Origin: a virus
Virus record (IMG/VR): IMGVR_UViG_3300037119_006827
Span: 1-48,962 of that record
Length of the DNA: 48,962 bases
Reading direction: 5' to 3' (one strand)
The translations under genes were made by a program, and so were the position numbers. The notes under the pieces are model-generated. The model was not told the DNA's origin. It worked only from the letters and a program-made list of their open reading frames with translations, and ran no database searches. Below are positions 1 to 48,962 of this stretch, one piece after another; within the stretch, counting starts at the first letter, position 1; each line of letters opens with the position of its first letter.

Positions 1-127
1 GCGAAGATTCCCGGCGCGACCAAGGCCCAGACCGTGCTCCGGCGCGCGTTCGTCACCGGCTCGCGCACCGCCGACGAGCACGGGTCGCGCGCCGCCCAGG
101 CCATCAAGAACCTGCGCGAGATGGCGC
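1..127. repeat. Terminal direct repeat, left copy
   Basis: Bases 2-127 are identical to 48837-48962. Base 1 is G where the matching base 48836 is T, which changes a Ser codon (TCG) to Ala (GCG) in the giant virion gene. The overlap shows that the window is a circular or circularly permuted unit of about 48,835 bp. The length is typical of an assembly k-mer overlap, so it need not be the physical genome end. Confidence 0.9.
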
Positions 128-2379
128 TCGGACAGGCCGAGCACGCCAGCAACATCGCCGTGCGCACGCTGCGCAACGGGCTCCACGCGGCCGCCGGCGA
201 GGACCGCAAGTTCCTGGACGAGCTGCCCGAAATCTACCGGTCCCTGGAGACCGGAGACGCCAGCGCCGTCGAGGCGATGTACCGCGCGCAGGGCCGGGAG
301 AAGGCGGCCGACGCCGTGCTCACCCTGCGCAACATGAACGCCGAGGACACCGCAGCGGTCGTGGCCGAGGGCTACCTCCCCGAGGAGTTCCTCTCCAGCA
401 CCGGCGGCAAGGGCGGCTACATGAAGCGGGTCGAGACGAAGAAGGCGGCCAAGGCCCGGCGCGACGCCACGGCCGGCACCCGCCGCGGCTCGCCCGCCCG
501 GCCCGCCTCCATGTTCAAGCAGGACGCCGTGCAGGGCTCGACCCACGCCCGGACCTCGCACGCTGGCGAGGTGCTGACCGACGAGCTACAGGCCAGCTTC
601 GCCGCCGAGCGCGGGCTGCCCGAGGGGACGAAGGTCATCGAGGACAACCCGTTCTACTCCGTGGGCGAGCACCGCACCGAGCTGGAGCACCGCCGGGCCC
701 ACGACGAGTTCATCCGCCAGGCCGAGGAGCTGACCGACGACGCCGGCCTCCCCCTCGTCACCCGCGACGCTGACCTCGCGCGCACCCACGGGTACGTGTC
801 CGTGCCGACCCCGCAGGGCCAGGTGTGGGCGCCGCCCGCCATCGCCGAGGATGTCGCCAACTTCCAGGACGTCGTGTTCAACGACGAGACCATCAAGGCG
901 TTCGGCCGGACGATGGACAAGACGATGCGCATTTGGAAGGCGCACGCCACCGTGCCGCTGGTCGGCATGGCGTTCCACTCCCGGAACGCCGAGACCAACG
1001 TCATGCTCAACTGGATCGCCGGCGTCGAGAACCCGGTGTGGTACGCGCGCTCGGCCAAGGCCCAGCTCAAGGTCGAGAAGGCGATGAAGAACCTCGGGCC
1101 CGACGTGGACTTCGAGACCGCGCTCGCCAAGAGCGGGCTCACGAAGAAGGAGCAGAACGCGGTCAAGCTCGCGATGGATCACAACGTCCTGACGTCGAGC
1201 CAGGCCAACGTCGACCTCGCCGACATCGGTGGGTCGAGCCACGCCGACCAGCTCAGCGCGAAGAGCGCAGAGCCTGGCCTCCGAGGGCGGGCAAAGCGCG
1301 CGCCGCAGAAGGCCAACTTCCTCAGCCCCGAGCACTTCGTCGGGACCAAGAGCGGCCGCTGGGTCTCCTCCGGGCTGGAGAACAACGCCCGCCTCGCCCA
1401 CTTCATGTGGGCCCTCGACAAGTACGGCGACGCCGAGATTGCCGCGCAGTCGGTCAAGAAGTACCTCTTCAACTACGCCGACCTCACCCCGTTCGAGCGC
1501 CGGGTGATGAAGCGCGCGATCCCCTTCTATACCTTCATGCGGAAGAACACCGCGCTCATGCTCACGAGCACCGCCGAGAACCCCGGCAAGATGAGCCGGT
1601 TCGCGATGGCGCAGAAGCAGCTCCAGGACGAGACCAAGGGCGGCCCCGACTTCCTCAAGGGGAATCTGATCCCCGGCTACATCACCGAGCAGGGCCAGGC
1701 CCCGTCGAAGGTGCCGGGCCTGGGCGGGCTCACCGCCTCGATCGAGTCGCCGTGGTCCGCCGCGGCCGACACCCTCGCGCCCGTCGGCGAGATTGCCGGC
1801 ATGGTGCCGGTCGCCAACCGGTTCGTGCCCGGCGAGTTCAAGGGCAAGGGCCCGGAGGAGACCGCGCTCAAGCTCCTCAACATCCCCGGCGGGCCCGTGG
1901 CCGAGGCTGCGAAGTACGTGGCCGAGCGTGCCCTGGGCAAGGACACCTTCACCGGCGGCGACGTGCGGAAGATGAACCCCCTCGGCGAGGGGCTCCGCAT
2001 CACGGACATCTTCGCCCCCTCGCCCTCGAAGGTCACCCGGCTGACCGACAAGCTGACCCAGGGCGACGTCACCGGCAAGCACACCACGCCGGCCGAGGGC
2101 GACGAGCGCACCCGCCGGCGCAGCGCCGCGGTCATCAATGCGATCTTCGGTCTGAACACCAACGCCGTCGGCCCGCAGGCCACCGAGGCGGAAATCACCC
2201 GGCGGTTCTACGAGCTGGCCGACTACATCGACGTGCGCAACAAGGACTTGCCGGCCACGCTCAAGGACGGGGTGACCCCGAACCCGAAGCGCGTGCCGAC
2301 GATCGAGGAGCTGCGCGACGCTGGCATCCTGCCCTCGGGCAAGCGGAGCGACCCGTACGGCAGCGCCTACGGGAACTAG
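1..2379 (+). CDS. Giant polyvalent virion (ejection) protein, C-terminal part
   Basis: Continuation of the gene that starts at 45317. The frame is open from base 1, so the first ATG/CTG-type codon here is not a real start. This part is mostly helical. It contains a stretch resembling a conserved segment I associate with giant phage structural polyproteins: FNYADLTPFERRVMKRAIPF, at roughly residues 1672-1691 of the joined protein, followed by a TFMRKN segment. Small-residue, amphipathic stretches further on (around window bases 1740-1930) could insert in membranes. No catalytic motif is seen in this half. It ends at a TAG inside a CTAG palindrome, which also supplies the stop of the convergent gene at 2376. 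Role inferred: internal or ejected virion protein. Confidence 0.75.
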   Translation, partial: AKIPGATKAQTVLRRAFVTGSRTADEHGSRAAQAIKNLREMALGQAEHASNIAVRTLRNGLHAAAGEDRKFLDELPEIYRSLETGDASAVEAMYRAQGREKAADAVLTLRNMNAEDTAAVVAEGYLPEEFLSSTGGKGGYMKRVETKKAAKARRDATAGTRRGSPARPASMFKQDAVQGSTHARTSHAGEVLTDELQASFAAERGLPEGTKVIEDNPFYSVGEHRTELEHRRAHDEFIRQAEELTDDAGLPLVTRDADLARTHGYVSVPTPQGQVWAPPAIAEDVANFQDVVFNDETIKAFGRTMDKTMRIWKAHATVPLVGMAFHSRNAETNVMLNWIAGVENPVWYARSAKAQLKVEKAMKNLGPDVDFETALAKSGLTKKEQNAVKLAMDHNVLTSSQANVDLADIGGSSHADQLSAKSAEPGLRGRAKRAPQKANFLSPEHFVGTKSGRWVSSGLENNARLAHFMWALDKYGDAEIAAQSVKKYLFNYADLTPFERRVMKRAIPFYTFMRKNTALMLTSTAENPGKMSRFAMAQKQLQDETKGGPDFLKGNLIPGYITEQGQAPSKVPGLGGLTASIESPWSAAADTLAPVGEIAGMVPVANRFVPGEFKGKGPEETALKLLNIPGGPVAEAAKYVAERALGKDTFTGGDVRKMNPLGEGLRITDIFAPSPSKVTRLTDKLTQGDVTGKHTTPAEGDERTRRRSAAVINAIFGLNTNAVGPQATEAEITRRFYELADYIDVRNKDLPATLKDGVTPNPKRVPTIEELRDAGILPSGKRSDPYGSAYGN

Positions 2380-28957: not shown

Positions 28958-30745
28958 ATGACCGTCCTGCCTACCGCCGCGGAGCTAGAGCGCCTCCTCA
29001 AGATCGCCTCCCCCGAGGAGCAGGCCGAGCTGACGAAGCTGCTCGACCTCCAGCTCTCCCTCGACTCCCCGCTCGCCTACGCGATGCGCGTCTCCCCGAT
29101 GACGCAGCCCTTCGCGCACACCGTCCTCCTCGACAAGTACCTCGTCGCGCTCATAGACCATGCGCTATATCACCGCGATTCCGAGGCGTCACGACTCCGG
29201 GACGATCTCCCCGAGGGCATCTCGGACGTGGCGGTGTTCGTGCGGAACGAGGAGGAGGACGACGGCTCGGGCCGGTTCGAGCACCCGGTCACGGGCGAGG
29301 AGTGCGTCTACAACCTCGCCATCTCCATGCCGCCCCAGCACGGCAAGAGCTACATGGTCTCCGAGCACCTGCCCGCGTGGTACATGACGAAGTACCCCGA
29401 GCGGAACTGCGCGATCATCTCCTACGAGGAGACGTTCGCGACGTCGTGGTCCTCGAAGGTGAAGACGATCATCGAGGACCACCCCGAGTACGGGATCGAG
29501 CTTGATCCGTCGACCAAGGCGAAGGGCCTGTGGAAGAACACGATCGGCGGCGGGATGATGGCGGCCGGCGTCGGCGGCCCCTTGACCGGCCGCTCGCTCC
29601 ACCTCACCATCATGGACGACCTCATCAAGAACGCCGAGGAGGCGCTCTCCGACGCGAAGATCAAGGGGACCCAGGACTGGTGGCTCTCGACCTGCAAGAC
29701 GCGTAACCAGTCGCCCCGCCAGTGGCCCGGCCAGGAGCCGCAGGCCGGCGTGCGCCTGCTCATGCACACCCGGTGGTCGAAGAACGACCTCATCGGCTTC
29801 ACGCAGCGGACCGAGGACGCCGAGTGGTTCTACCTCAACCTGCCGGCGCTGAGCGAGGGCACCAACCGGGACCATCTCCCCGAGGGCCACCAGCCGGACC
29901 CGCTCGGCCGGCCCAAGGGGAACGCCCTCGCGCCGATGCTGCACAGCAAGGCGGTCCTGGAGCGGCTGCGCGACTCGGGCGACCCCGACGATCCCGACAG
30001 CGGCGGCGAGTTCTGGTTCAGCGCTATGTATCAGGGGTACCCGACGGTCGAGGGCTCGGGCATCTTCTCGGACCCCTATTTCTACTACAAGCGCGCGGGC
30101 AACAAGTTCTCCTTCGCCGACGGGTACACCTGCTACTACGAGGACTTGCGCCATTTCGCGTCGACCGACCTCGCGATTTCGACCAAGACGCGCGCGGACT
30201 GGACCGTGTTCATGGAGTGCGGCCAGGCGCCCGACGGCCGGCTCGTCGTCGTGGACGTGTACCGATTCCGCCTCGAAGCACCCGACCACGAGCCCCGCCT
30301 TCGAGAGTGGCTGAGCCAGCGCGCCAGCATGATGTTCGTCTGCATCGAGGACAAGACGTTCGGCTCGGCGCTGCTCCAGTCGGTCAACCGGAAGGGTGGC
30401 TTCATCCCGCGCCCGATGAAGGCCGACGTCGACAAGATCACGCGCGCGATCCCGGCCGGCCAGGCCATCCGCAACGAGCGGGTCTGGTGGGCGACCCCGA
30501 ACCAGGCGGACTGGGTGCGGTGGATGGAGGCCGAGATGAGCGCCTTCCCCACGGTTGGCGTCCACGACGACATCATCGACTCTCTGGCCTACGCCGTGCA
30601 GGCGTGGCTCACCCTCGGGCAGCGCCACCCCGGCAGCGCCGACCTCGACCAGAGCATGGAAGCCAAGGTCCGGCGCGACCTCGCCAAGCGCCTCAAGAAG
30701 CGGCAGAAGGGGCGCCCTCGGCATCCCATGCTCGGCCGCCTCTAG
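28958..30745 (+). CDS. terL: Terminase large subunit
   Basis: 595 residues. ATPase motifs: Walker A SMPPQHGKSY (about 124-133) and Walker B LTIMDDLI (about 218). Coupling-type segment LLMHTRWSKNDLIG follows. The C-terminal nuclease has STDLAIS (Asp near 404), an acidic strand FVCIEDKTFG and VHDDIIDSLAYAV (Asp pair near 536). It pumps DNA into the procapsid through the portal and cuts concatemers. The N-terminal 40 residues form a helical extension. The small subunit is not adjacent; the HTH gene at 21889 is the only candidate seen. Confidence 0.95.
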   Translation: MTVLPTAAELERLLKIASPEEQAELTKLLDLQLSLDSPLAYAMRVSPMTQPFAHTVLLDKYLVALIDHALYHRDSEASRLRDDLPEGISDVAVFVRNEEEDDGSGRFEHPVTGEECVYNLAISMPPQHGKSYMVSEHLPAWYMTKYPERNCAIISYEETFATSWSSKVKTIIEDHPEYGIELDPSTKAKGLWKNTIGGGMMAAGVGGPLTGRSLHLTIMDDLIKNAEEALSDAKIKGTQDWWLSTCKTRNQSPRQWPGQEPQAGVRLLMHTRWSKNDLIGFTQRTEDAEWFYLNLPALSEGTNRDHLPEGHQPDPLGRPKGNALAPMLHSKAVLERLRDSGDPDDPDSGGEFWFSAMYQGYPTVEGSGIFSDPYFYYKRAGNKFSFADGYTCYYEDLRHFASTDLAISTKTRADWTVFMECGQAPDGRLVVVDVYRFRLEAPDHEPRLREWLSQRASMMFVCIEDKTFGSALLQSVNRKGGFIPRPMKADVDKITRAIPAGQAIRNERVWWATPNQADWVRWMEAEMSAFPTVGVHDDIIDSLAYAVQAWLTLGQRHPGSADLDQSMEAKVRRDLAKRLKKRQKGRPRHPMLGRL

Positions 30746-35067: not shown

Positions 35068-37197
35068 GTGGCATCAGACAAGCGGCAGGGCCCTCAAGAC
35101 GAGCAGACTGCCCATGACGCAAATCCCGAGCGACCGTTCGACGCTGGGAAGGTCCGTGCCCTGTACGAGGATGCAATTCGGTACCAGCGGAAGGCCGCGC
35201 AGGAGTATTATTTGAACCACGCGTTCCTGGAGGGCCATCAATGGCTCTGGTTCGACACGCACACCCGCTCGATCGCCGAGCTGCCCCGTGACGACGATCG
35301 CGTCCAGGCCACCATGAACCGGCTGGCCCACAGCACGCGGTCCATAATGAGTAAGTATACTCAAAGGGAGCTGTCCTTCGAGGTGATGCCCGACGCCGGC
35401 ACCGACGCCGCCATGACCGGCGCCAAGATCGCCGAGGCCGTGGTCGAGGGCGTCCGCAAGAGCCACGACTGGGAGGCCAAGCGCGAGATTCTCGGGCGCG
35501 CGGCTTGGAAGGGCGGCACCTCCGTCATCGCCGTGGACTGGGACATCAACGCCGGCATGCCGCTGTTCGACGGCGGGCTCACCGCCGACGACCCCGAGCA
35601 GGTCGCGGCCATCACCTACGAGGGCGACAGCGTGGAGACCGTGCTCTCGATCGCCGAGGTCGCGTTCCAGCCCGGCGTCAAGAACGCCGAGACCGCGACG
35701 TGGTGGATCAAGGCCCAGGCCCTCCCGCCCTCGGACGTCAAGGGCATGTTCAGCCTCGACAAGCTCCCGCCCGCCGACGCCACCGCGGGGCTGACCCCGT
35801 TCCAGACGAAGCTCATGGCCTCGCATCACGCCGAGGGCAGCGAAGAGCAGCCGGACCTCACGCTCGTGCTCACCTACTACGAGCGCCCGAACCCCTCGAA
35901 CAAGGAGGGCCGGGTCGCTGTCGTCGTCAACAACAAGTTCGTGGAGGGCTCGAACAAGCCGTGGCCCTTCCCCTGGACCGACCGCCTGAACTTCGCGGTC
36001 CACCGGGAGACCCCGAGCGAGACCACCTCGCTCGGCACCACGATCCTGAGCCAGTCGCGCTACTCCCAGGTCGCCTTCAACCACGCCTGGTCGAACTACC
36101 TGGAGCACCTCAAGAACGCCGGCAACGCGCGTCTGATGATCGACGCCGCGAGCCTCGACCTCATCGACTCGCTTACCGACCTCCCCGGCGAAATCATCCC
36201 CGTGCCCACGGGGATCGAGCGCCCCGCCTGGCTCCAGCCGGCGCCCATCGCCGACGCCCTGATCCGCCTGATCGAGGAGTTGCGCAACGAGATTGACGAC
36301 CAGCTCGGCATCCACGACGTCTCGCGCGGTACCGCCCCCGTCAACATCGAGTCGGGCTACGGGCTCTCGATCCTCGCCGAGCAGGACAACAGCCCCGTCG
36401 GTCGCATGGTCAAGGACAGCGCGCAGGCGTGGGAGAAGATCGCGAGCATGGTCCTCAAGCTCTACGAGGACAACACGCAGCACAACCGGACCACGACCGT
36501 GAAGCAGGACCGGTACGGGCCCAAGACGGTCGAGTGGTCCGGCGACAGCTTCGCCGGCCAGACCGACGTGTCGATCCCGCTCGACGCCATCCTCCCGCGC
36601 AGCCGCGCGGCGCAGATGGCCGTGGCCGAGAAGTTCGTGCAGATGGGCCTCGTGCAGGACATCGAGACCGCGGCCATGATGGCCGAGCTGCCGGGCCAGA
36701 AGGACCTGATCGCGGCCGTCAACCCCGACCTGAACCGCGCGCGCAACGAGAACTTCAAGCTGAGCCAGGGCCGGCCGGCCCTGATCGCCCCGTTCGACAA
36801 CGACGAGGTGCACATCCGGGCCCACGAGTCCGAGATGAAGAACATGGAGTGGGACGACGCCCCGCAGGAAATCAAGGATATGTTCCTCCAGCACGTTCAG
36901 CAGCACCTCATGCAGGCGGCCGAGAAGTCGGGCAAGGCGCAGGCCAAGGCCCAGGTCTCCCCCGTCCTGGCCGCCTCGCCGGACATCTCCGGCGTCCCGA
37001 CGATCCCCGCCGAGGCTCTGCCCCAGGGCTCGATGGTCGACGCGGGCCCGCTGGCGAGCGCGCCCTCGCCGGCCGACCCCGGCGTCGCGCCCCCCGACGA
37101 GGGCATGGGCCCCGACGAGGGCCTGGGCATAGGCGCCGGCCCGCAGCCGCCGCAGCCCTCGCAGGCCCCTGGCGCGATGGCGATGCCCCCGCAGTAG
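35068..37197 (+). CDS. Portal protein (P22/podovirus type)
   Basis: 709 residues, leaderless GTG. N-terminal helical region with YYLNHAFLEGHQWLWFDTHT and VQATMNRLAHSTRSIMSKYT, typical of large podovirus portals. Central wing/stem segments include VAFNHAWSNYLEHLKNAGNA and IEELRNEIDDQLGIHDVSRG. The last 70 residues are Pro/Gly/Asp-rich (DEGMGPDEGLGIGAGPQPPQ), probably flexible. It forms the dodecameric ring through which terminase packages DNA. Followed by scaffold and capsid genes as in other podoviruses. Confidence 0.9.
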   Translation: MASDKRQGPQDEQTAHDANPERPFDAGKVRALYEDAIRYQRKAAQEYYLNHAFLEGHQWLWFDTHTRSIAELPRDDDRVQATMNRLAHSTRSIMSKYTQRELSFEVMPDAGTDAAMTGAKIAEAVVEGVRKSHDWEAKREILGRAAWKGGTSVIAVDWDINAGMPLFDGGLTADDPEQVAAITYEGDSVETVLSIAEVAFQPGVKNAETATWWIKAQALPPSDVKGMFSLDKLPPADATAGLTPFQTKLMASHHAEGSEEQPDLTLVLTYYERPNPSNKEGRVAVVVNNKFVEGSNKPWPFPWTDRLNFAVHRETPSETTSLGTTILSQSRYSQVAFNHAWSNYLEHLKNAGNARLMIDAASLDLIDSLTDLPGEIIPVPTGIERPAWLQPAPIADALIRLIEELRNEIDDQLGIHDVSRGTAPVNIESGYGLSILAEQDNSPVGRMVKDSAQAWEKIASMVLKLYEDNTQHNRTTTVKQDRYGPKTVEWSGDSFAGQTDVSIPLDAILPRSRAAQMAVAEKFVQMGLVQDIETAAMMAELPGQKDLIAAVNPDLNRARNENFKLSQGRPALIAPFDNDEVHIRAHESEMKNMEWDDAPQEIKDMFLQHVQQHLMQAAEKSGKAQAKAQVSPVLAASPDISGVPTIPAEALPQGSMVDAGPLASAPSPADPGVAPPDEGMGPDEGLGIGAGPQPPQPSQAPGAMAMPPQ

Positions 37198-38373: not shown

Positions 38374-39582
38374 GTGGCAATCACCGGCCTCAACCTGTCG
38401 GCAGCGTCCGCCGCGCTCAAGGACGTGTACCTCCCGGTCGTTCGCGACCAGCTCAACCGCTCGAACTGGCTCCTCAGCCAGATCGAGAAGAACACCACGG
38501 ACTTCGAGGGCAACCGCGCCGTCCTGTCCCTGCACGTCGGTCGCAACACCGGCATCGGCTTCCGCGCTGACGGCGCGGACCTCCCGACCGCCGGCAAGCA
38601 GGCCCGTACGACCTCCTACGTGAGCATGCGCTACTCGTACGGTCGCATCGAGGTCACCGGCCCGACCATCAAGACGATGAAGTCCAACAAGGGCAGCTTC
38701 GTCCGCGCGGTCGACTCCGAGATGAAGGGCGTGGTCAACGACCTCAAGCGGGACTGGTCCCGCGTGCTCTTCGGCACCGGCGATGGCGTCATCACCGCCA
38801 CCGGCGTCACCTCGGCCAGCACGACCGTCACGGTCCCCCTGGCCTCCGACGCTGCGCTGCGCTCGCTCGAAGAGGGTGCGGTCATCGACATCGGTACGGT
38901 CGCTTCGCCGACCGCCATCGCGTCGGCCCGCACCGTGGTCTCCGTCGACAAGGCGGCCAAGACCCTCGTCATCTCCGGCGCGGCCGTCACCACGGCCACG
39001 ACCGACCGCATCTTCCGGTCGGGCTCCGGCGGTGAGGGCATCGAGGCCGTCGGCCTCCAGGACATCGTGTCCCAGGCCGACGACAACTTCCAGGGCGTCG
39101 ACACGGGGAACTACCCCCTGTGGCGTGCCGGCTCGGTCGTGGACGCCAACCAGGCGACCCTGACCGACACCCTCCTGGAGGAGTCGCTGGACGAAATCGA
39201 TGTGGTCTCGGGCGAGTTCCCGGACATCATCGTGACCACCCACGGCGTCATCCGCAACTACGCGGCTTCCCTCAAGGACAACAAGCGGTTCACCAACACC
39301 GTGTCCCTCAAGGGCGGCTTCAAGGCGGTGTCGATCGACACCCCCGCGGGTGCGATCAACCTGATGCGGGACCGCGACGTCCCCAACGGGTTCGCCTTCA
39401 TCCTCAACACCAGCCACCTCAGCCTCTTCGTGCTGAGCGACTGGGAGTGGATGGACGATGACGGTGCCATCCTCAGCCGGGTGAGCAACAAGGACGCCTA
39501 CGAGGCGACCTTCTACAAGTACGCCAACCTGGCGACGGATCAGCGCAACACCCACGGGCTGATCTACGACCTGGCCGACTGA
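38374..39582 (+). CDS. Major capsid protein, HK97 fold
   Basis: 402 residues from GTG at 38374. Typical features: a short helical N-terminus (LKDVYLPVVRDQLNRSNWLL), TTSYVSMRYSYGRIEVTGPT in the early P-domain region, and VVNDLKRDWSRVLFGTGDGV in the long spine helix. A beta-rich A domain (TTVTVPLASDAALRSLEEGA) is followed by SLFVLSDWEWMDDDGAILSR near the C-terminus. No separate protease domain is seen. Bounded by hairpins on both sides, consistent with a highly expressed, separately transcribed gene. Confidence 0.9.
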   Translation: MAITGLNLSAASAALKDVYLPVVRDQLNRSNWLLSQIEKNTTDFEGNRAVLSLHVGRNTGIGFRADGADLPTAGKQARTTSYVSMRYSYGRIEVTGPTIKTMKSNKGSFVRAVDSEMKGVVNDLKRDWSRVLFGTGDGVITATGVTSASTTVTVPLASDAALRSLEEGAVIDIGTVASPTAIASARTVVSVDKAAKTLVISGAAVTTATTDRIFRSGSGGEGIEAVGLQDIVSQADDNFQGVDTGNYPLWRAGSVVDANQATLTDTLLEESLDEIDVVSGEFPDIIVTTHGVIRNYAASLKDNKRFTNTVSLKGGFKAVSIDTPAGAINLMRDRDVPNGFAFILNTSHLSLFVLSDWEWMDDDGAILSRVSNKDAYEATFYKYANLATDQRNTHGLIYDLAD

Positions 39583-40113: not shown

Positions 40114-40764
40114 GTGAGTCAAACGCTGGCAGACGTGTGGGACGCAGCCCTTCTGCGGCTGGGCCTCCCCGAGGATGACGGCTACTGGTCGCAGGAGTTC
40201 AAGCGCCTGGCGGTGTCGACCTCCCAGCGCGAGGTGGCGTCGCGCGTCGACTGGCCCGAGCTGGCCGTCGAGACCACGTTCACCGTGTCGGGCGACCCGC
40301 CCTACGACCTGCCCGCGGATGAGAACTTCCTGCGCCTCCAGTGGGTGTCGGTCGATGGCACCGGCGGCGCGCTCCTGATCCCCAAGCAGCGGCGCGACAC
40401 GCTCATGTACGACGAGACCGAGCCCTCCGAGGCCGGCTCCCGCTACTACAGCCTCGTGTCCGATGGGGTCGGGCAGCTCGCCCTCTGGATCAGCCCTCGG
40501 CCGGCCGACGACGAGGTGGTCCGCCTCGCCTACATGCGCAAGCCGGCCGCGATCAACAACGACACCGACGAGTTGCAGGTCGCCGACCACATGGTCGAGG
40601 CCATCGTGCTCCGCACCATGTACCACGCCGCGATCCGCAAGGGCGACCTCGACCGCGCGCGCGAGGTGAGCGGCGAGTTCGAGCAGCAGATGAAGACCCT
40701 GAACGACGAGGTGCTCACGAGTCGGGGCCCGCTGCGCCCACGGGTGCGCCAGGACGGCATCTGA
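40114..40764 (+). CDS. Head-tail adaptor (T7 gp11/P22 gp4-like)
   Basis: 216 residues. N-terminal helices (SQTLADVWDAALLRLGLPED, FKRLAVSTSQREVASRVDWP) precede a strand-rich part (LAVETTFTVSGDPPYDLPAD, NFLRLQWVSVDGTGGALLIP). A helix with AYMRKPAAINNDTDELQVAD and a C-terminal helix follow. This helix-sheet-helix layout, and its position before the nozzle gene, match podovirus adaptors that close the portal. The stop overlaps the next ATG (TGATG). Confidence 0.8.
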   Translation: MSQTLADVWDAALLRLGLPEDDGYWSQEFKRLAVSTSQREVASRVDWPELAVETTFTVSGDPPYDLPADENFLRLQWVSVDGTGGALLIPKQRRDTLMYDETEPSEAGSRYYSLVSDGVGQLALWISPRPADDEVVRLAYMRKPAAINNDTDELQVADHMVEAIVLRTMYHAAIRKGDLDRAREVSGEFEQQMKTLNDEVLTSRGPLRPRVRQDGI

Positions 40765-42966: not shown

Positions 42967-43472
42967 TCCACCGGGCGTGGGAGGGCGAGAAGCCCGGTTG
43001 GGTCCGGTGGACCGAGCGTGCGGTAGCTACCGTACACCGGGCACCCGTGCGCACCGTGGCCCTGTGCCCGCTCCTGCCGGGCTCAACACCCGCGCGCCGG
43101 TCCAACATCCACCGGCTGGAGGTGCTGCTCCTGGAGGGCGGGCTGTGGCTCGACTGCGACCTCGTGCCCCTGGCGAACCTGCTGACCCTGCACGACGAGC
43201 CCTGGATGGGGTACCAGAACGGGAAGCTCCGGCCAGGGATCGCCTTCTTCCCCGAGGGCAATCATCCCCTCGTGGCCGAGGCCCTCGACCGCGCGATCGA
43301 GTCCCCGGACCGGCCCCTGGCCGACCACATCGCTGCCTGCAAGCCGAGCTTCGTGCGCCCCGAGCCCCGTGTCCTGCCCCATGACTCGGAAGGAAACTGG
43401 GTCCTCAGGAATGGAATGGAACCCCTCGCTGTTCACCTATGGTTCTCATCGAGCCGGCTCGGGCTAGGCTAG
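42963..43472 (+). CDS. Glycosyltransferase-like protein (DXD sugar-transferase family)
   Basis: 169 residues from GTG at 42963 (GTGA overlap; GTG at 42957 also in frame). The segment SNIHRLEVLLLEGGLWLDCD followed by LVPLANLL matches the DXD region of the Gly_transf_sug/capsular-type glycosyltransferases (compare R...L...GG-x-Y-x-D-x-D, here LDCD). YQNGKLRPGIAFFPEGNHPL continues the fold. It is short for an independent enzyme and sits among virion genes. It may glycosylate virion or host-surface components, or be a degenerate relic. Confidence 0.65.
   Translation: MIHRAWEGEKPGWVRWTERAVATVHRAPVRTVALCPLLPGSTPARRSNIHRLEVLLLEGGLWLDCDLVPLANLLTLHDEPWMGYQNGKLRPGIAFFPEGNHPLVAEALDRAIESPDRPLADHIAACKPSFVRPEPRVLPHDSEGNWVLRNGMEPLAVHLWFSSSRLGLG
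43465..43470 (+). promoter_or_regulatory. -10 box TAGGCT, leaderless
   Basis: TAGGCT at 43465-43470, whose final T is the first base of the preceding TAG stop; seven bases (AGGCGCC), GTG 43478. Confidence 0.6.
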
Positions 43473-43477
43473 GCGCC

Positions 43478-44082
43478 GTGCCTATCAACCTCGATCCTGT
43501 CGCTTCGCAGGACCCCGAGTACCTCGCCTTCATGCGTGGAGCCGGGTACAGCGAGGCCGAGGTGCTCGCTGAGCTTGCCCGCAAGCAGGGCTCCCTCCAG
43601 CGCCAGTTGGAGCGCAGCGCCCCCCGCTTCGCCGACGAGCTGCGCACCGCCGAGCAGGGCGTCGAGCAGGACTTCACCAACCGGGGCCTCTACCGCTCCG
43701 GCGCGCGCATGTCCAAGCAGGTCGACGTCGGCAACGTGGTCCGCCGGAACGAGCAGGAGTTCCGGTTCGGCATCGCCGACCAGCAGGGCGACATGAACAG
43801 CGCCGCCATGCGCGACCTCGCTGACCAGCGCCGGCAGGCCGCCGACTACGCGCTCCGCTCCCGGCAGCTCATCGCCGAGGAGAACGCCAACAACCAGCCC
43901 GCCAACATGCCCACGAGCCACAACCTCGGCCCCGAGCCGGGCGGCGGTGGTGGTGGCTACCCCGGAGCCCCCAAGCCCCCACAGCGCACCAACCAGCAGA
44001 ACCGGACCTACAACGCGTTCCGCCGGCGCGCCCTCGGCGGTAAGGTCAGCCCGACCAGCACACGCGGACCGAGCGCGTACTG

Positions 44083-44083
<1 letters not shown>
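43478..44083 (+). CDS. Internal virion protein, helical
   Basis: 201 residues from GTG at 43478. Helical first two thirds (YSEAEVLAELARKQGSLQRQ, RFADELRTAEQGVEQDFTNR, AMRDLADQRRQAADYALRSR). Then a Gly-rich turn (GPEPGGGGGGYPGAPKPP) and a basic C-terminus (RTYNAFRRRALGGKVSPTST). It is the first of three consecutive internal-type genes before the genome closure. The stop overlaps the next ATG (TGATG). Confidence 0.7.
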
Positions 44084-45306
<1,223 letters not shown>

Positions 45307-45316
45307 CCTGTAAAGC

Positions 45317-48300
45317 GTGGCACCCCCGTCCTCGTTCTTCGGCACGTCCTCCTCCAGCAGCGGTGGCGGCGGGGCCAGCAGCTTCTTCACGGCCGGCAAC
45401 GCCGGGGCGAGCAACGCCTACAGCACGCCCTACAACGCGCCGGCCACCGACGAGTCGACCGCGATCAAGCAGCAGCTCGCCGCCGTCGCGCGCCTCGCCA
45501 ACAGCAACCGCGAGGAAGACAAGGAGATGGCGCGCAAGTACCTGGAGGACAACCAGCAGCTCTACACGGACGACGAGCTGGCCGAGTACGGGCTCCAGAA
45601 GCCCGGCCACGACGACCGGTCCCTGTGGGAGAAGGCCAAGGGCTCGGCGATGGGTGCCGTCCAGGGCGCGATGGGCGTCATCAGCCGCCCCCAGCAGTTC
45701 ATGGCCCACGCCCTGAACACCCTCGGCACCGGCGTGGCCGGCGCCGTCGAGGTCGCCCAGGGCGACGTGAAGGCCGGCGACTTCTTCGGCGGCATGAAGG
45801 AGATGACCGAGGACACCTTCGGCTCGCTCGCCGACATCAAGGGCAAGAACGACATCAACACCCGCGAGATGCTGAACCTCGACAAGGGCGCCGGCGGCTC
45901 CGGCTGGGTCGGCGACTACCTCATCGGCGGGCTCGACATGGCCGGCATGATCGCCACCGACCCCCTCTCGTGGATGGGTGCCGGCGGCACCGCCGGCGCT
46001 CGTGCCGCGGGCATGAAGACGGTGGAGCGGGCTGCGTCCCAGGGGCTCGTGCGGGCCGAGCTGCCCCAGCTCCTGCGCGCCGAGGGCCGCCAGGCGGTCA
46101 CGGCTGCCGAGGAGAAGGTGCTCCGTGACCTCGCACGCCAGACGGCCGAAGAGGCTGGGGCCGGCACGCGCGGCCGCCTCGCCACCTGGGCCCTCCGGGG
46201 CGACCAGAAGACGGGCGGGGTATTTACCCGCTGGAAGGAGGGCGCCATCCACGACGTCGCCACCGGGGCCAAGGAGCAGGGCCGGCTCAGCTCGCGCTAC
46301 TGGTCGCCCACGGGGCTCGTGGACGAGAGCGGCAAGGCCCTGTCCGGCGGCGCCCGCATCGGCGAGAAGAACATCGACGCCATCCTCGCGGGTGGTCAGC
46401 GCGGCTTCAAGTTTGGCGGCCAGACCCTCGTCGGGGCCGACAAGTACCGGGGCCCACTGGAGGCTCGCGGCATCCTCAACAGCCGGCCCCTCGTGGAGAA
46501 CACCGCCAAGACGGCGGCCGAGGTCAGCCATGCCGACACGCTCACGCAGATGGAGAAGCTCCAGCAGCGGATGGCCGAGGTCGAGGAGAGCAAGACCGCG
46601 TGGGCGTCGAAGTCCAGCGAGCGCCTGCCCGGCGCCGAGGAGGAGCTGGCCCGCCTCACCGAGGAGTACCAGGGGCTCGCCGCCAAGCTCATCGACGCCG
46701 ACCCCGAGGTCTACAACCCGGCGCAGATGGTGGACAACCCTGAACTGGCGAAGGCCAGCCAGGAGCAGATGCGCCACGAGCACAAGCTCAAGCAGATCGA
46801 GGCCGAGCAGGCCAAGCTGGACGAGGCCGACAAGGCTGTCGACGCACAGCGCGCCGACCTCCAGAAGCAGATCGAGAACCTCCAGGCGACGCGCGAGAAC
46901 CTCTACGCCGACCCCAAGTTCAACGCCTCCGGCCCTCGGGTCCTGGAGGATGCGAGCGCCAACCTCGAAGCGCAGATGGACAACCTGCGCAACCAGCTCG
47001 ATGAGCTGGACGCCAACGACGACTACGCCGACCGGATGGCCGACCTGTCCGAGCAGTACGAGCAGACCGCTCGCCTGGCCGACGAGGCCGCCACCACGCC
47101 GAAGAAGGTGTACCAGGAGGGTTCGATGTCCCCGAACCCCGAGCTGGACGTGCGCGCCAAGATTCCGGCCGAGCCCGAGGTCGAGGCCGAATTCTTCCCC
47201 GGCGAGCCCGTCAACCCCGACGCCAAGAACATCACCGCCCAGGCGCCCAGCGGCCGGCCGCTCGGCACCGTCGACTACTACGTGGACGACAACGGTGTCG
47301 TGCAGATCGACAGCATCCGGGTCATCGGCGAGCGCAAGGGCGTCGGTCGACGGCTCATCGCCGAGGTCGAGAAGGCCACCGGCCAGCCCGCCGGAAAGTT
47401 CGGTCCGGGGGATCAGGTCGAGGAGGGCGCCGAAGGATTCTGGAAGGCCGTCACCGGGCAGGACGTGGACCCTGTGACCCGCCAGCCGATCCCCGGCAAG
47501 GGCCCGGACCCCTTCATGGAGGGCGACAAGCCGTTCTTCCACGGGACCCCCGACGGGTTCGACGGCGAGCTGCGCGGTGGAATTGACGACCCGAACACGC
47601 TCGGGTTCGACAACGACGCCGGCCCCGGAATCTACACGGCCGACCAGGAGGGAGTCGCCAACGAATTCTCCCGGCTCATGGGGGACCGGGCCACGAACCC
47701 GCAGACCAACACCGTCCACTGGAAGGGCGACCACCCGCCGCAGTTCCTCGACATGCGCGCCGGGCCCGAGACCATCCCCGAGGATGCGATCGCGCACCTG
47801 CGCCAGTGGTTCGCGGCCCGCGGCGCGGAGCTGCCCCCGTTCGAGGAGGGCCGCTTCGCCGGCGCCAACGAGGGCACCGCCTTCGACTGGTTCCAGTCGG
47901 TCAAGCGCGAGGCGCGCACGCTCGCCGGCGACGACGCCGAGCAGCTTGACGAGCTGGCTCGCGGGTTCAGCAAGAAGATCGAGGACGCCGGATTCGACGG
48001 CATCGAGCACGAGGGTCTCGCCGTCGCTATGGGCGACGAGTCGAACACGCACCGCATCATCTTCCGCTCGGAGAACATCGAGAGCCGTCCCGCCTACAAG
48101 CGGGCGATGGACAAGAGCCCCGAGGCGAAGGCCCCGCCTAAGCCCAAGGCTCCCAAGGCGCCCAAGGGCCCGCAGCCCCAGAAGATTTCGGTGCAGATGC
48201 GCGGCGGCTCCGGCTGGGACGCGCGCCGGTTCCAGCTCGAAGCTGAGCTGCCCCCCGTCCCCGAGGGCCACACGCGTATCTTCAAGTCCGCCTCGGGCGG

Positions 48301-48962
48301 CGGCGCCGACGGCCGTGGCTACTGGGCCGAGGAGCCCCTCGGTGGATACGGCGACGAGCTGTATTACTCCGACGTGCCGACCGACGACCTGGCCCAGTAC
48401 CGCGGTTCCGAGAACGGGGCCGAGGGCCAGTACGTCTTCGCGGGCGACAACCGTGCGCCCAACCCCAAGCGGATCAAGCCCGGCGACAACACGGGCGCCA
48501 CCTCGCCCGCCGCCAAGGTGCTCGGCCCCGCCAAGGAGGCCGCCCCGCCTGCGGCCGCGCCTGCCGGCGCTCCCGCCCCCGCCACCAAGCCCACGCCCGC
48601 CACCCGCAAGAGCCTCGCCGCCCAGACCCAAGAGGCCGAGCGCGCCATGCTCAAGGCCGAGCGCGAGGTCAAGCGCCTCCGTGAGAAGGTCGGGGTCACC
48701 GCCGAGAAGGTGACCGCGCGCGCCGAGGCCAAGGCCAAGCGGCTCGCCGCCCGCCACGCCGAGCTGGAGGCCAAGGCCGCCAAGCTTGGGGACCGCATCC
48801 CCAAGATGCCCGCGCAGGTCGAGGACTTCATCCCCTCGAAGATTCCCGGCGCGACCAAGGCCCAGACCGTGCTCCGGCGCGCGTTCGTCACCGGCTCGCG
48901 CACCGCCGACGAGCACGGGTCGCGCGCCGCCCAGGCCATCAAGAACCTGCGCGAGATGGCGC
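45317..48962 (+). CDS. Giant polyvalent virion (ejection) protein, N-terminal 1215 residues
   Basis: GTG start, seven bases after a TAGCCT -10 box whose TAG is the stop of the preceding gene. It runs off the window and continues at base 1; joined length is 1965 residues. Visible regions in order: Ser/Gly-rich head; small-residue helices with possible membrane-inserting stretches (about 112-235); long charged coiled coil (about 395-600); a GNAT acetyltransferase-like core with the acetyl-CoA loop RKGVGRRL (about 650-690); an ADP-ribosyltransferase-like domain beginning FFHGT (about 739) and continuing with GPGIYTAD to about 925; a Pro/Lys/Ala linker; a further Gly/Tyr-rich domain (about 950-1040); a second Pro/Ala linker and another coiled coil. 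As the last and largest late gene after the internal virion proteins, it is inferred to be an ejected, multi-enzyme virion protein. The GNAT and ART assignments are by motif only. Confidence 0.75.
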   Translation, partial: MAPPSSFFGTSSSSSGGGGASSFFTAGNAGASNAYSTPYNAPATDESTAIKQQLAAVARLANSNREEDKEMARKYLEDNQQLYTDDELAEYGLQKPGHDDRSLWEKAKGSAMGAVQGAMGVISRPQQFMAHALNTLGTGVAGAVEVAQGDVKAGDFFGGMKEMTEDTFGSLADIKGKNDINTREMLNLDKGAGGSGWVGDYLIGGLDMAGMIATDPLSWMGAGGTAGARAAGMKTVERAASQGLVRAELPQLLRAEGRQAVTAAEEKVLRDLARQTAEEAGAGTRGRLATWALRGDQKTGGVFTRWKEGAIHDVATGAKEQGRLSSRYWSPTGLVDESGKALSGGARIGEKNIDAILAGGQRGFKFGGQTLVGADKYRGPLEARGILNSRPLVENTAKTAAEVSHADTLTQMEKLQQRMAEVEESKTAWASKSSERLPGAEEELARLTEEYQGLAAKLIDADPEVYNPAQMVDNPELAKASQEQMRHEHKLKQIEAEQAKLDEADKAVDAQRADLQKQIENLQATRENLYADPKFNASGPRVLEDASANLEAQMDNLRNQLDELDANDDYADRMADLSEQYEQTARLADEAATTPKKVYQEGSMSPNPELDVRAKIPAEPEVEAEFFPGEPVNPDAKNITAQAPSGRPLGTVDYYVDDNGVVQIDSIRVIGERKGVGRRLIAEVEKATGQPAGKFGPGDQVEEGAEGFWKAVTGQDVDPVTRQPIPGKGPDPFMEGDKPFFHGTPDGFDGELRGGIDDPNTLGFDNDAGPGIYTADQEGVANEFSRLMGDRATNPQTNTVHWKGDHPPQFLDMRAGPETIPEDAIAHLRQWFAARGAELPPFEEGRFAGANEGTAFDWFQSVKREARTLAGDDAEQLDELARGFSKKIEDAGFDGIEHEGLAVAMGDESNTHRIIFRSENIESRPAYKRAMDKSPEAKAPPKPKAPKAPKGPQPQKISVQMRGGSGWDARRFQLEAELPPVPEGHTRIFKSASGGGADGRGYWAEEPLGGYGDELYYSDVPTDDLAQYRGSENGAEGQYVFAGDNRAPNPKRIKPGDNTGATSPAAKVLGPAKEAAPPAAAPAGAPAPATKPTPATRKSLAAQTQEAERAMLKAEREVKRLREKVGVTAEKVTARAEAKAKRLAARHAELEAKAAKLGDRIPKMPAQVEDFIPSKIPGATKAQTVLRRAFVTGSRTADEHGSRAAQAIKNLREMA
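48836..48962. repeat. Terminal direct repeat, right copy
   Basis: Right copy of the overlap with 1-127: 126 identical bases plus one mismatch at the outer edge. Both copies read in the same frame of one open reading frame, so joining the ends rebuilds a single uninterrupted gene. Confidence 0.9.

Follow-up and report, generated by a model that had tools for sequence, protein, structure and literature searches.

A candidate ejection protein of a podovirus-like phage with predicted GNAT and ADP-ribosyltransferase domains, the latter in an exchanged interval

The window analysed here is a stretch of viral DNA of 48,962 nucleotides, covering the full 48,962 bases of the IMG/VR record IMGVR_UViG_3300037119_006827. 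It ends within a long open reading frame, whose product had been taken in a preliminary description for a polyvalent virion protein with GNAT-like and ADP-ribosyltransferase (ART)-like domains, through which host proteins would be modified ahead of all phage gene expression. The question raised by this locus is whether the two domains are there, and whether the protein is likely to deliver them into the host.

The ORF starts with GTG and is open at the right end of the window (45317-48961, plus strand, 1,215 amino acids). Window bases 2-127 are an exact copy of bases 48837-48962 (126 bases; in the 127-base overlap only the first base is mismatched). The reading frame is unbroken across the overlap and continues to a stop codon at 2379, which makes a total of 1,965 amino acids, as originally proposed. 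The motifs that had been named, RKGVGRRL, FFHGT and GPGIYTAD, are found at residues 673, 740 and 769, respectively, and LTPFERRVMKRAIPF is located at residue 1668 (window 1483). The terminal overlap is compatible with a circular or circularly permuted genome, and we take it as probably complete, with circular permutation. The record is listed in IMG/VR as linear despite the 126-base exact terminal overlap.

45317..48962, plus strand: putative ejection protein, first 1,215 of 1,965 residues; GTG start, exits the window at the right end
1..2379, plus strand: the same 1,965-aa ORF, remainder to the stop codon, joined by the in-frame repeat

The rightward gene block contains a terminase (28958-30745) and a tail fibre; portal, scaffold and capsid; an SU10-type adaptor; and then a series of unassigned genes, at the end of which stands the large protein. 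The latter had been described as the last structural gene, and indeed it closes the head/tail block after the adaptor. The presence of the SU10-type adaptor and the fact that no tape-measure gene was identified suggest a podovirus-type particle. The two genes upstream of the large ORF are candidates for further internal proteins by position only; both have counterparts in the record of the nearest relative of the large protein, the 1,824-aa large protein of IMGVR_UViG_3300037119_006958 (below, L003). The gene directly upstream encodes a long glycine run (about 18 residues).

35068..37197, plus strand: portal protein (phrog_156, E = 1.3e-24)
38374..39582, plus strand: major capsid protein (phrog_14242, E = 1.8e-93)
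40114..40764, plus strand: SU10-type head-tail adaptor (PF24175, E = 1e-18)
43439..44083, plus strand: 214-aa gene, possible third internal protein (L003 identity 68%)
44083..45306, plus strand: 407-aa gene directly upstream of the large ORF, probable second internal or ejection protein (L003 identity 58%)

The host is probably actinobacterial, judging from the GC content of the large gene (about 70%) and from its relatives. The C-terminal part of the protein resembles two large proteins, one of Cellulosimicrobium phage DS1 (30% identity, about 100 residues) and one of Podoviridae ctEqG8 (26%, about 400 residues), whose genome has annotated WhiB genes. Along the conserved N-terminal and C-terminal parts of the window protein, here called the chassis, no sequence similarity to a proven ejection protein was found. 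LPD38 was considered as the identity of the C-terminus and rejected: searches, one of which lacked a positive control, gave no match, and hhalign against an LPD38 region likewise found no similarity.

556..1704, plus strand: C-terminal chassis, residues 1359-1741, including LTPFERRVMKRAIPFYTF; common to DS1 and ctEqG8 by sequence match

Scans of the whole protein against Pfam, NCBIfam and PHROGs produced merely weak matches of the coiled-coil type, and tblastn of the first 1,215 residues against phages produced no match. The GNAT and ART domains were detected only when isolated segments were scanned.

A GNAT acetyl-CoA loop had been placed at approximately residues 650-690, and a GNAT fold is predicted for residues 634-726. 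The core of the AlphaFold2 model has pLDDT 84-91. The best PDB match is tubulin acetyltransferase (Z 7.4); GCN5 and AcrVA5, an anti-CRISPR protein, are also matched (Z 6.4 and 6.3, respectively). These Z values are middling by the own note of the structure-search tool, and the Foldseek probabilities of up to 1.00 come with E of only about 0.02. Nevertheless, the predicted fold is convincing because the match list is uniform: essentially all listed PDB matches are GNATs. The Pfam matches of the isolated segment are weak (PF00583, E = 0.029; PanZ, E = 0.019), and the PF00583 score of 15.1 bits does not reach the cut-off of 20.7.

47216..47494, plus strand: minimal GNAT-like fold, with three strands followed by a helix and then by another, short helix, residues 634-726; AlphaFold2 model and PDB matches
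47333..47356, plus strand: acetyl-CoA-type loop RKGVGRRL, residues 673-680; motif and alignment with L003

The region is kept in L003 (64% identity over residues 634-726), including the GNAT core and the GxG glycines. The acetyl-CoA loop reads ERKGVG in the window protein and RGEGHG in L003. Compared to the motif Q/RxxGxG/A, the L003 loop fits, whereas the window loop starts with E. As the domain is truncated and has E in place of Q/R in the loop, the GNAT may be minimal or weakened, and possibly inactive.

The candidate ART domain follows directly. Residues H742, Y773 and D894 align with the histidine in strand 1, the tyrosine in strand 2 and the aspartate near strand 5 of the family, and correspond to the H-Y-D residue set given for polyvalent ARTs (PMC5512222). 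The triad and the surrounding motifs are retained at an identity of just 17-27%, approximately, to other family members.

47519..48094, plus strand: ART (ART-PolyVal-like) domain, residues 735-926; profiles and predicted structure
47540..47542, plus strand: H742 of the triad (FFHGT), aligned to the conserved H of ART-PolyVal domains
47633..47635, plus strand: Y773 of the triad (GPGIY), aligned
47996..47998, plus strand: D894 of the triad (GFDGI), invariant in A5 and A6

A comparison with profiles of polyvalent ART families had been proposed as a check. The Pfam profile PF18760 (ART-PolyVal) matches the isolated segment with E = 0.01 over profile positions 7-132 of 140, with a score of 17 bits, below the cut-off of 31.2 bits, and a six-frame search of the window with the same profile gave no match, so that the assignment is not based on that search. 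Since the score is below the gathering cut-off, we call the domain ART-PolyVal-like and do not assign it to PF18760. On the other hand, our own profile does recognize it. This profile was built from 37 proteins encoded in 45 viral DNA stretches with a high-GC HGT...G-x-Y-F pattern, the window being excluded; all six of these proteins that were scanned against Pfam carry PF18760 far above the cut-off. The window protein is found with E = 6e-5, whereas the best of 200 shuffled sequences reaches 0.95 and the best among the other ORFs of the window 3.7, and the alignment covers HGT, GPGIY, GFDGI and IIFRSENIES. Comparison with 20 of the profile ART domains by hhalign yielded 92.7%, for the C-terminal part. 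With a narrower first seed profile, made from 10 ART domains, the window could not be told apart from shuffles, which limits the sequence evidence, and pairwise searches for ART relatives in viral_contigs and phages found none. Two tandem ART-PolyVal domains occur in a phage protein at L012 2655-3632, and more than one also in L024, L033 and L043.

The structure prediction agrees with this assignment, in line with the ART-like module proposed at about residues 739-925. The model of residues 735-926 alone is of moderate quality (pTM 0.72, mean pLDDT 71, some loops below 50). It was built with the 20 profile ART domains in the alignment, and the structure search is thus only partly independent of the sequence evidence. 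All PDB matches with Z of 3.7 or above are ARTs or ART-like. By far the best one is 9k3a_B, residues 1418-1600 (Z 11.3, 165 residues aligned, rmsd 3.6), which is also the top Foldseek match (E = 0.014, probability 0.97). It is followed, with Z from 6.1 to 3.7, by MbcT, the anti-CRISPR protein 6kyf, RES toxins, diphtheria toxin, tankyrases and PARPs. Both predicted folds and a triad of histidine, tyrosine and an acidic residue, on which the preliminary description had made its proposal depend, were therefore found. With GNAT and ART folds predicted in one 1,965-aa ORF among virion genes, the protein is, according to the models, a polyvalent virion protein, and the modelled ART module may have ADP-ribosyltransferase activity.

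Comparison with L003 shows that the two modules behave differently. The proteins are 65% identical over residues 37-725 of the window protein and 75% identical over residues 1096-1951. The interval in between is exchanged: L003 retains the GNAT and has no ART, carrying instead about 220 unrelated residues (L003 10077-10700, EKLYRVVSNEEWAEAQRTGKL...). This replacement segment has no similarity to the ART profile and belongs to no Pfam or PHROGs family, and a DNA pattern search for it found no match. The large proteins of DS1 and ctEqG8, included in the same test set as the window, also gave no match with the ART profile. L004 encodes the same protein as L003 over the available stretch. Downstream of the ART, the exchanged interval of the window protein contains the GHTRIFKSASGGGADGRGYWAEEPLGGYGDELYYSDVPTDDL segment (residues 957-1070, window positions about 48185-48526), and residues 957-1070, approximately, have no family match.

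47507..48601, plus strand: exchanged interval, approximately residues 731-1095; unrelated sequence at the same place in L003

Because L003 carries an unrelated segment at this place and the ART profile is silent in DS1 and ctEqG8, the ART is, by sequence comparison, an exchangeable cassette on a conserved chassis. One possibility is that the actinophage podovirus-type ejection proteins form a family of delivery vehicles in which the effector at one position can be exchanged, close relatives keeping the chassis and the minimal GNAT and swapping the neighbouring module, so that each phage would deliver its own early protein-modifying enzyme. However, this generalization is tentative, as only one other lineage is known.

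The same data bear on the possibility that both folds are real but have decayed, or have been repurposed as structural or binding spacers devoid of enzyme activity. The minimal GNAT with its deviating loop, the ART score below the Pfam cut-off, and the fact that L003 manages without this ART would all agree with that. However, the full H-Y-D triad and its flanking motifs persist at such low identity, and L003 retains the GNAT core with its glycines; we consider such a loss of activity rather unlikely.

The best structural match provides a link to ejection. The PDB entry 9k3a is the pre-ejectosome of cyanophage A4; a paper on cyanopodophage A4 (PNAS 2025) is cited in PMC12810830. The product of ORF27 of Anabaena phage A-4L (YP_009042797.1, 1,717 amino acids) contains LYHGT...GSGTYF at about residue 1425, within the range 1418-1600. 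It is ranked first by the ART profile (E = 0.0036; among the 200 shuffles of the test set the best had 0.25). Since the residue numbers and the motif agree, ORF27 is apparently the chain in 9k3a. Thus an ART-like domain of a podovirus ejection protein already has a deposited structure. In L058 (20116-25269) this ORF, with its ART-like domain at approximately residues 1418-1600, is annotated as 'tail protein'. Like the candidate ejection protein of the window, ORF27 is very large and has an ART-like domain, here with the motifs YHGT and GSGTYF, and it apparently belongs to a podovirus ejection complex. However, its ART is near the C-terminus, the host is a cyanobacterium, and no GNAT was identified in it. 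No sequence similarity between ORF27 and the window protein was detectable along the chassis.

Gene order, the SU10-type adaptor and the ART match in a solved pre-ejectosome all point to a podovirus-type ejection protein, the role originally suggested. The location of the gene in the structural block would also suit a tail or head component that remains in the virion, or a protein acting late in the cell. Against this, no large gene follows it in the podovirus-like block, and its ART matches a domain residing within a solved pre-ejectosome; permanent retention or late action therefore seems unlikely. It is very unlikely that the modules serve in counter-defence or superinfection exclusion, acting on host defence or on competing phages, and not in general host takeover: exchange between close relatives would fit an arms race, the PDB match ranked third for the ART model is 6kyf (Z 5.7) and AcrVA5 is among the GNAT matches, but the Z values are no higher than for other ARTs and GNATs, and a shared fold reveals no target.

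On balance, this is probably a large ejection protein, packaged and ejected, of a podovirus-like phage that infects high-GC bacteria, probably actinobacteria, and its GNAT and ART modules would modify host targets early. The conserved N-terminal and C-terminal parts would form the ejection-protein chassis, and the inserts in the middle would be the minimal GNAT, kept in the relative, and the exchangeable polyvalent ART of the H-Y-D type. The protein would be packaged in the capsid and exit together with the DNA. In the cytoplasm, early in infection, the ART module would ADP-ribosylate host targets using NAD+, and the GNAT module, if active, would acylate its targets from acyl-CoA.

For each component of such a system there is a precedent, namely T4 Alt, the polyvalent ARTs next to GNATs, the ART fusions of Microbacterium phages, and the ART-like ejectosome domain of cyanophage A4. 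Iyer et al. 2017 (PMC5512222) described polyvalent ARTs that are injected or virion-associated, in some cases with a GNAT nearby, and in one family a GNAT typically adjoins the ART (PMC5512222). These adjacent pairs come from gammaproteobacterial phages and prophages and from one uncultured Mediterranean phage (PMC5512222). The window domain resembles ART-PolyVal (PF18760)/Tox-ART-HYD2 in the H-Y-D triad, the order of motifs and the virion-associated multidomain setting, but it has no usual WFGxSKVVDxxGxP lead-in and contains a long insertion before the last strands. In Microbacterium phages Percival, Goodman and Johann (PMC7302621), an ART is also fused to a predicted actinobacteriophage virion protein. 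However, there it is a VIP2-type ART on a MuF-like minor capsid protein of siphoviruses, not an H-Y-D ART on an ejection chassis. Alt of phage T4 is an ART that is injected and acts on host proteins as infection begins, but it belongs to another ART clade and is a stand-alone head protein of a myovirus. Thus the novelty implied by the preliminary description is partial. The injected ART, also beside a GNAT, and its occurrence in an ejectosome were anticipated by PMC5512222 and 9k3a, whereas it is new that GNAT and ART are combined on a putative ejection chassis of the actinophage type and that the cassette is exchanged. The lack of the ART cassette in the closest relative goes beyond the preliminary description.

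If this reading is true, podovirus-type actinophages would use their ejection proteins to deliver enzymes that depend on NAD+, and perhaps also on acyl-CoA, as infection begins. The exchange of these enzymes in one slot would provide a defined place to seek new effectors. The theme of T4 Alt and the polyvalent proteins would then also include the ejectosome, in phages that infect high-GC Gram-positive bacteria.
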